Shown: positions 11,969 to 39,448 of the stretch, in pieces
How positions within the stretch are numbered: position 1 is the stretch's first letter
Layout: each line of letters opens with the position of its first letter
NCBI GenBank assembly: GCA_021208645.1
Contig: JAJOJL010000117.1
Location: 1 to 64,000, forward strand
DNA from: Bacillus sp. (in: firmicutes)
GTDB taxonomy: Bacteria > Bacillota > Bacilli > Bacillales > Salisediminibacteriaceae
DNA length: 64,000 nucleotides
Direction of reading: 5' to 3'
The notes under the pieces: generated by a model
Seen by the model: only the letters and a program-made list of their open reading frames with translations
Database searches by the model: none
Told to the model about the DNA's origin: nothing
Program-made: the position numbers and the translations under genes

Positions 11969-12854
11969 TTATTTTTTCACTTGTGACATTACTTCTTCTG
12001 CGAAGTTGTCTTCTCGCTTCTCCATACCTTCCCCTACTTCAAAACGGAAGAATAACTTGATGCTTGCACCTTTAGATGCCACATATTTACCTACTTTATG
12101 GTCACTGTCTTTTACGAATGCTTGGTCATTTAAGCAAATATCTTCAAAGAACTTGCTAAGACGACCTTCCACCATTTTTTCAACAATGTTCGCTGGCTTG
12201 CCTTCGTTTAACGCTTGCTGCTTTAATACTTCACGCTCACGATCTACTTCTTCTTGAGAAACTTGGTCGCGGCTTACGTATTTAGGGTTAATGGCTGCAA
12301 TGTGCATAGCAATGTCTTTTGCTAGCTCTTCGTCAGTTGTTCCATCTAAAAGAGTTAATACACCAATTCGTCCGCCCATGTGAAGGTACGCACCGAAAGC
12401 TTGATTATCAGATTTCTCAACTACTTCAAAACGACGAAGAGAGATCTTTTCACCAATTTTAGCGATTTGATTGTTGATATAGTTTTTGAAGAGTGTCAGC
12501 ATCTCCAGCAAAATCTTGTCCTAGAGCTTCTTCCACATTAGCTGGGTTGTTGCTCAATAAATGGCCAGCAATTGTATCTACTAAGTTAATGAAGTTCTCG
12601 TTTTTCGCAACGAAATCTGTTTCAGCATTGATTTCTACGATAACCGCACGATTACCGTCCGTCTTTACTGAAGTTAAACCTTCTGCAGCAATACGGTCTG
12701 CTTTTTTAGCAGCACTTGCAATCCCTTTTTCACGTAAAAAATCAACTGCTTTTTCCATATCACCGTTTGTTTCTGTTAATGCTTTTTTACAGTCCATCAT
12801 TCCTGCGCCAGTTTTTTCTCGTAATTCTTTTACCATACTTGCTGTAATTGCCAT
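11969..12854 (-). CDS. tsf: Translation elongation factor Ts, frameshifted near 12485
   Basis: [44 protein letters not shown]... Confidence 0.96.
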
Positions 12855-12937
12855 AGGAAATTCCTCCTTAGTAATATGTACCTTTGCTTGGTATAGTTTT
12901 AACCAGTTTTAAAAGAAACAAAACTTATTTTTAACTG

Positions 12938-13065
12938 ACAATGGCTTCGCACGCCGCGCGCCAGTTATGAGAAGACCACTCATAACTGGCTTTCAAACAA
13001 TGCGGCGGCTTCGCTCATCCCTTCGAAGAATTAAGGAAAGGGAGAAAACCTTTGCTTAATTCTTC
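12938..13065. repeat. Family B structured repeat, copy B1 (tsf-rpsB intergenic)
   Basis: CAATGGCTTCGCACGCCGCGCGCCAGTTATGAG-AAGACCA-CTCATAACTGG...GCGGCGGCTTCGCTCATCC followed by hairpin GAAGAATTAAG...CTTAATTCTTC. Confidence 0.85.
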
Positions 13066-13113: not shown

Positions 13114-13812
13114 TTAAGCAGTTGTTTCTTCCCCTTGATTTGCTTCGATGATAGCATCAGCCATTTTTGCTGTTAAAAGACGTACAGCACGGATAGCATC
13201 ATCGTTACCAGGGATTACATAGTCGATTTCATCAGGATCACAGTTAGTATCTACAATCCCTACGATTGGAATATTTAATTTACGAGCCTCAGCAACAGCA
13301 ATACGCTCTTTACGAGGGTCGATAATAAATAATGCATCAGGAACTCTTTCCATATCTTTAATTCCGCCTAGGAATTTCTCAAGACGTTCTAATTCTTTCT
13401 TCAAAATTACAACTTCTTTTTTAGGAAGAACTTCGAAAGTTCCATCTTCTTGCATACGCTCGATAGCCTTTAAACGTCCAATACGCTTACGGATAGTATC
13501 GAAGTTAGTTAATGTACCACCTAACCAACGTTGTTGATGAAGTACATCCCACAACGCTCCGCTTCTTCTTTAACAGCTTCTTGCGCTTGTTTTTTTTGTT
13601 CCAACGAAAAGCATAGTACCGCCTTGTCCAGCAAGGTCACGTACGAAGTTGAACGCTTCGTCAACTTTCTTTACCGTCTTTTGTAAATCGATAATGTAAA
13701 TACCGTTTCTTTCTGTGAAAATGTAGCGATCCATCTTAGGGTTCCAACGACGTGTTTGATGTCCGAAGTGTACCCCTGCTTCCAATAATTGTTTCATTGA
13801 AATCACTGCCAT
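13114..13812 (-). CDS. rpsB: 30S ribosomal protein S2, frameshifted near 13595 (A8 vs expected A7)
   Basis: [46 protein letters not shown]... Confidence 0.97.
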
Positions 13813-13985
13813 TTTACACACCTCCTCTTGGTTTTTTTAGCCTCCGCTTCCATCTTCTTTAAGTGAGACTGCAGAGCAGCACCTTCACTTAAATCAGGAA
13901 AGCGTGTGTGATTAACACCGAGAAATAATATACCATATTGTGATGCACATGACAAGTGGTAGAGTGTTATTTAATAATTTGCTCT

Positions 13986-30289: not shown

Positions 30290-30408
30290 GTGTTTCACCT
30301 CCAAATATCTATCACACAATTAGATATATTATCATAAAGTTTCCTCGGGGGCAACCCCTAGTAAAGTAAAAAAACTTTACAGCTTAATTTAGTCTTCAAA
30401 ACTACCTT

Positions 30409-30537
30409 GGCAATGGCTTCGCTCGTCGCTCGCTGACAGGAGAAACCCACTCCTGTCAGCTCTAGAATCGTGTCGACGGCTTCGCTCATTGCATCGTCAT
30501 TTCAAAAAAGATCAAAAACCGATCTTTTTGAAATGAC
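30409..30537. repeat. Family B structured repeat, copy B2 (downstream of ffh)
   Basis: GGCAATGGCTTCGCTCGTCGCTCGCTGACAGGAG-AAACCCA-CTCCTGTCAGC...TCGACGGCTTCGCTCATTGC + hairpin GTCATTTCAAAAAAGATC...GATCTTTTTGAAATGAC. Confidence 0.9.
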
Positions 30538-39270: not shown

Positions 39271-39278
39271 ACGTTAAA

Positions 39279-39411
39279 GAGGGTGACTCAAAAGTGGTGT
39301 TTTTCCCTTTTGAGTCACCCTCTAAGCAATGAGCGGAGCCGTCGCAATCTTGAAAAAGCCTGATAGGAGTGGGTTTCTCCTATCAGGCGAGCGACGAGCG
39401 AAGCCATTGCC
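39279..39411. repeat. Family B structured repeat, copy B3 (downstream of the GNAT gene)
   Basis: Hairpin GAGGGTGACTCAAAA...TTTTGAGTCACCCTC then GCAATGAGCGGAGCCGTCGC...GCCTGATAGGAG-TGGGTTT-CTCCTATCAGGC-GAGCGACGAGCGAAGCCATTGCC. Confidence 0.9.
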
Positions 39412-39448
39412 ATCTTTCTTATTTTACTTTTGGGACAGTCACATTTAG

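Follow-up and report, generated by a model that had tools for sequence, protein, structure and literature searches.

The bcr repeats are intergenic sequences of 100-400 bp, often located within UTRs, of which bcr1 reaches up to 130 copies (PMC6542083, PMC3446304); they belong to the B. cereus group and are associated with a TTTAT repeat (PMC6542083). The stem-loop MITEs ERIC, RUP, NEMIS, EFAR and Nezha are short, TIR-bounded, non-coding sequences situated near genes, which are transcribed and can affect their neighbours (PMC3733652). REP/RAYT systems are characterized by high-copy intergenic palindromes (PMC2817692, PMC3733652), and a repeat of ~74 nt with a conserved structure, Bhal-1, is present in 36 copies in Bacillus halodurans (PMC2267715). 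The repeat family reported here, three copies of which lie in the window (the whole stretch of 64,000 nucleotides analysed), was compared with these systems by description: (i) it shares with bcr1-bcr3 (group A, MITE-like) a short length, an intergenic location and a high copy number, but differs from them by its varied 8-9-bp duplications, its IS1182-like TIRs and its occurrence in other genera, and the TTTAT target motif or duplication of bcr1 was not found among the duplications of the elements; (ii) it shares with the stem-loop MITEs a short, TIR-bounded, non-coding and gene-near layout; (iii) it consists of high-copy intergenic palindromes, as REP elements do, but has TIRs and duplications and no consistent link with RAYT; and (iv) it shares with Bhal-1 a conserved structure and a related alkaliphile host, so that Bhal-1 could be a relative or an earlier sighting of the new family. 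Among stem-loop MITEs, we know of no comparable multi-stem covarying core spread across several bacterial families. Rfam 15 gave no match at gathering score in the window and for four loci nothing relevant up to E=5, no named family was found, in agreement with the original prediction, and the literature covered on IS1182 MITEs and on bcr, EFAR and Evansella repeats (subscription papers being outside its scope) contained no description of the family. As far as could be found, the family is previously unlisted.

The three copies were found where they had been predicted, i.e. B1 at 12938-13065, B2 at 30409-30537 and B3 at 39279-39411; realignment reproduced the proposed alignment, and each copy lies 3' of a gene of the same strand (rpsB, ffh and a GNAT-like ORF, the last one a weak match). 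The units are real, but the extent of 129 nt initially attributed to them leaves out the right end, a right inverted end lying beyond (e.g. 39426-39442 in B3). Using R1, the covariance model with which genomes were searched for the core, B1 was found to contain, on the minus strand, a core (12937-13021; 92.5 bits, E 2.8e-24) made of an outer stem, a 3x3 internal loop, a middle stem, a 12-nt bulge and a hairpin (hairpin 1), and, at its left end, a predicted terminal hairpin with 17-bp arms (hairpin 0; 13025-13065), directly past the rpsB terminator. B2, also on the minus strand, comprises a predicted hairpin 0 (30496-30537) immediately past the ffh stop region, a core (30409-30492; 92.5 bits, E 2.8e-24) and a putative degenerate right end AGTTTTGAAGACTA (30389-30402), picked out by eye because it resembles, with a 2-nt gap, the reverse complement of the left arm CTTTTTGAAATGACTC, and not counted as a TIR in the right-TIR scoring. 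The ffh-rpsP spacer carries no insert in several element-free relatives. B3, on the plus strand, consists of a hairpin 0 or left TIR AGAGGGTGACTCAAAAG...CTTTTGAGTCACCCTCT (39278-39323), 7 nt past the stop of the GNAT-like ORF, of the core with the best match in the genome (39326-39411; 103 bits, E 1.5e-27) and of an imperfect right TIR ACTTTTGGGACAGTCAC (39426-39442), assigned by eye, whose reverse complement GTGACTGTCCCAAAAGT is similar to the left arm GGGTGACTCAAAAGT; a right TIR resembling that of B3 is also present in a copy of a sister species (L118). The motif GAGCGAAGCC (at most one mismatch) occurs eight times in the 64-kb window for 1.7 expected, and six of these eight occurrences are inside B1-B3. 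In the same window, rpsB and tsf are each broken into two ORFs (13114-13821 and 11969-12854, respectively) and ffh is one T short ahead of its stop (30512; TTTATGTAA to TTATGTAA); together, these disruptions look like assembly indel errors more than real lesions.

The element is ~150-180 bp long, encodes no transposase and has the following order: a left TIR folded back as hairpin 0, 3 nt, an 85-nt covarying core, a linker of ~6-45 nt and a right TIR. Hairpin 0, composed of an A-tract, a short stem, a T-rich loop and a T-tract, was assessed in two ways, by scoring inverted repeats against a control and by examining covariation inside one subfamily. It lies 0-5 nt ahead of the core in nearly all copies, and its score is at least 10 in 88 of 103 copies versus 5 of 103 controls taken 110 nt upstream. 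Its 5' arm recurs in inverted form 6-47 nt past the core in many copies (a right TIR matching at 12 or more of 16 positions in 34 of 93 copies, for ~1.5 expected), and therefore represents the left TIR, for which both the neighbouring copy and the far end are possible pairing partners. The fold of the core is a single long interrupted hairpin, in which the outer stem GCAATG:CATTGC is followed by a bulged base, two G-C pairs and a 3x3 internal loop GNA/GNA, and then, inward, by two G-C pairs, the middle stem CGTCGC:GCGACG, a one-sided bulge of 12 nt and hairpin 1 (~12 bp, loop TGGGTTT or similar). The sequence AGCGNAGCC is found on both sides of the symmetric internal loop and is among the best-conserved parts of the core.

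Pairing is retained while the sequence changes. Indeed, hairpin 1 has a different sequence in each of B1-B3 and is paired in all of them, and the compensatory change claimed for the middle stem (CGTCGC:GCGACG versus CGCCGC:GCGGCG) is genuine. In a set of six copies (B1-B3 and three copies of the home genome found by exact pattern), 96.9% of the cells are paired and nine pairs show changes on both sides. An alignment of 106 copies (94 distinct), fitted to the structure and hence biased towards it, but with which the independent six-copy alignment agrees in direction, shows changes on both sides for 26 of 27 pairs and contains 313 double-change cells, compared with 64.8 +/- 9.6 after shuffling (a value of 313 being reached in none of 500 shuffles) and with at most 63 when the partners are slid. 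Since the stems covary while the symmetric GNA/GNA internal loop is conserved, the core most likely folds in RNA or in single-stranded DNA. Covariation being very strong in this larger set, and further copies being present as 122 genomic matches, the description of a dispersed element copied as a unit, with a structure retained despite sequence change and often 3' of genes, is supported.

The genome of the nearest relative (G008) carries a diverged rpsB-tsf copy in the same place and orientation as B1. Between the two species, both members of four pairs have changed without loss of pairing and 18 pairs are unchanged, and the unpaired positions are identical in only 18 of 29 cases, which favours selection acting on the structure once the element had inserted at rpsB-tsf, unless independent insertions occurred at a hot spot. 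The original prediction had proposed either selection on structure or copying as a structure; it seems that both are involved, as this orthologous-looking copy has undergone four double, pairing-preserving changes between species. Species-shared elements with changed but paired stems permit a direct test of post-insertion structural selection.

In the home genome (3.95 Mb, 167 contigs, 77% complete), the 122 core matches are those with E<=1, and 114 remain at E<1e-3. Four sister species (G001, G006, G007 and G008) contain from 73 to at least 110 matches each, and the R1 search found no element in four of the eight sister species (G002-G005), which belong to the same genus. Other carriers are found in further genera and families, the distribution being patchy: of the 399 genomes searched in the order, 20 carry the element, in 9 of 135 genera, and a single carrier genome was detected outside the order among 400 genomes of the class searched. 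B3 had no match in the plasmids and phages searched, and a 21-base pattern of the core had no exact match in IMG/VR. With 70-120 matches in several genomes, this is a large, order-wide, structured mobile repeat family without an Rfam entry.

The direct repeats that lie outside the element ends are transposition marks. Among the 40 copies with a recognisable right TIR, an 8-bp duplication is exact in 11 (permuted mean 0.16, maximum 2) and is present with at most one mismatch in 21 (2.0 expected). These duplications of 8-9 bp vary in sequence (GCTATCGCA in L149, GGACGGTTC in L243, as well as GGCCATAG, CGTTGGAA, TTATTTAT and others), and more than half of all copies lack a clear right TIR or duplication. 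In three carriers, IS1182-family transposons, whose transposases pass the curated cut-off, have the same kind of TIR and the same 8-9-bp duplications as the elements: (i) in G008, the IS1182 ends are GAGACCACTGAAAAA and GAGGCCACTGAAAAAG, the latter being exactly the left TIR of element L149; (ii) in the home genome, an IS1182 has the ends GGGACCTGTGAAAAAG and the duplication GGACGGTTC, i.e. the one also duplicated at L243, and one element subfamily (left end GAGACATGTGAAAAAG, right end of the CACAGGTTTC type) has ends close to those of this IS1182; (iii) in G065, the ends are GAGGCCACTGAAAAAG and the duplications ggttcccc, ggcggaaag and gaatattt flank three copies. Furthermore, an IS1182 of G008 (L325) has a doubled left end, with a 26-nt element-type end outermost and then its own TIR; its duplication gaaaagcaa is found beyond the element-type end, which was thus apparently the one recognised by the transposase.

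No full-length IS1182 was found in G068, and only fragments in G074, G364 and G402; several IS1182 of carrier genomes (G007) have unrelated TIRs. Element-free sisters have IS1182 as well, and the presence of the IS is thus no predictor of the element. The elements share with the IS1182 family (NCBIfam NF033551) TIRs such as GAGGCCACTGAAAAAG and 8-9-bp duplications, but they are devoid of genes, and their core had no R1 match within the IS1182 copies searched. Since the ends match IS1182 and the inside does not, 'IS1182-mobilised structured element with foreign core' is a safer description than 'IS1182 deletion derivative'. In the element-free G004 (L175, L187), a full IS1182 has its left TIR folded onto an adjacent inverted copy (GAGGGTGTCCCAAAAG..CTTTTGGTGACACCCTC); given this hairpin-0-like left TIR, the folding back of the end may be older than the elements.

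The best explanation, with an estimated probability of about 0.75, would be a non-autonomous, MITE-like family moved in trans by IS1182-type transposases, in which the hairpin 0 of older, stop-adjacent copies would have been recruited and then selected. Judging from the matching ends, IS1182-family DDE transposases would recognise the TIRs of the elements, move copies in trans and make the 8-9-bp duplications. Many older copies would persist immediately past stop codons, where hairpin 0 probably becomes the terminator or the 3'-UTR hairpin of the upstream gene, and the recruited hairpin would subsequently be maintained by selection on pairing. The conservation of the core is not explained by mobility or termination alone.

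Two other origins fit the ends and the distribution less well. Movement of a REP/BIME-like element by a RAYT (Y1 transposase) would agree with the palindromic, intergenic and high-copy nature of the repeats, with the presence of Y1_Tnp genes in all 12 genomes searched and with two full cores located near RAYT-like genes of the home genome (~50 nt away for L195, ~0.5 kb for L194), but it is very unlikely. RAYT-like genes are also present in the four element-free sisters, the two cores just mentioned are the only full ones within ~1 kb of a RAYT in the carrier neighbourhoods fetched, and those of the other carriers yielded a single weak 49-nt match, approximately as expected at one copy per 32 kb; repeats flanking RAYT genes as a rule were not found, and the RAYT/TnpA-REP partner suggested in the original prediction did not hold up. 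Moreover, the elements have TIRs and 8-9-bp duplications, unlike the products of Y1 transposition, which to our knowledge does not generate such a combination. A family of cis- or trans-acting RNAs at gene 3' ends, mainly inherited by vertical descent and not itself mobile, is improbable as well, if less so: the covariation, observed also at the copy common to two species, the many copies right past stop codons and the conserved unpaired motif are compatible with it, but presence or absence varies among sister species, target duplications and empty sites in relatives exist, and near-identical copies occur at many loci, some of them nested in another repeat family.

Returning to mobilisation by IS1182-type transposases, the part played by the core may be considered separately. 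At least five different TIR types surround it in a single genome and it recurs across families; the IS1182 loci searched have no core inside the transposon, and the stems vary without losing their pairing while AGCGNAGCC is retained on each side of the internal loop. The core could thus be the selected unit, namely an ssDNA or RNA folding module for transposition or regulation, fitted with lineage-specific IS1182-type ends and exploiting several transposases; this is put forward tentatively, as the divergence of the TIRs could merely track that of the transposases. It is likewise conceivable, though doubtful on balance, that this folding module (AGCGNAGCC loop, covarying stems and an apical loop of the UGG(G)UUU type), acting as RNA or ssDNA and joined to several IS1182-type ends across at least five families, makes the element a structured parasite that borrows transposases and supplies host terminators at stops. 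The core is a defined target for biochemistry.

In raw counts, 11 of the 24 copies of subfamily A of the home genome (core hairpin GACAGGAG) have the upstream stop at -6 to +8 nt from hairpin 0, and 7 of 44 copies of the other home subfamilies have it equally near, plus two at 9 nt. Altogether, ~20 of the 68 home copies examined start at most 9 nt from the upstream stop codon; few convergent stops are so close to the right end. At L120 and L125, the junction reads TAG in place of the TAA that is native in the nearest relative. Several orthologous gene ends without an element, inspected by eye in relatives, have a terminator-like hairpin past the stop codon. Within subfamily A, hairpin 0 contains 34 double-change cells for 13.1 expected, and the right TIR often fades while hairpin 0 diversifies with compensation. 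Covariation of hairpin 0 at stop-adjacent sites, where relatives often have terminator-like hairpins, suggests that it may take on a terminator or 3'-UTR role after insertion. The simplest reading is that stop-adjacent copies would have replaced or displaced the native terminator, the first hairpin being retained as an RNA hairpin. By its position, hairpin 0 would suit an intrinsic terminator, in which a U-tract follows a GC-rich stem, but its T-tract lies inside its 3' arm, and this hairpin is not a textbook terminator. The family offers an unusually clear case of a mobile element whose hairpin seems to take the place of host terminators, compensatory changes then maintaining it.

The element could also be viewed as a bidirectional terminator, with hairpin 0 serving the upstream gene and hairpin 1, together with the complementary T-tract, the convergent gene. 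The most frequent context is a pair of convergent genes (21 of 71 records), and in B3 the terminator scan calls hairpin 1 only, on the minus strand (39358-39388), as intrinsic-terminator-like, with a 12-bp stem followed by TTTTT. This is rather unlikely, as four or more T within the 8 nt past hairpin 1 on the opposite strand are found in only 31 of 94 copies, and the outer and middle stems would not be needed for such a function. A minus-strand terminator at hairpin 1 was set aside as a general feature, only this subset of copies having the T tract.

Some composite arrangements were also observed. About 12 home elements, including L143, L144, L249, L250, L261 and L268, are nested in another repeat family, where CAGCCTCCTCGGAG and CCCTGCGGGGTCTTC flank them; the resulting composite has itself multiplied. 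In several elements of G006 (L223, L239, L345), located at rpsB-tsf (in reverse orientation) and at ffh-rpsP, one common structured insert (GGAACCAGGATGATGACATTCCGCC ... GGCGGAATTGG) splits hairpin 1. Head-to-tail arrays of two to five [core + hairpin] units are present in family f6 (G140, G029), G015, G065 and G007, and several f6 arrays begin directly past a stop codon. Rolling or array-type replication was considered for these tandem copies and set aside; as direct copies of the hairpin sequence flank the core, the arrays may more simply result from unequal exchange between them. In L301-L304 and L310 (G140, G029), a locus-specific hairpin sequence is common to all units of an array. Lastly, a diverged element of G008 (L346), at the 3' end of a cysK-like gene and in the same place as the home copy L123, has lost the left-side internal-loop motif and retains its stems and hairpin.
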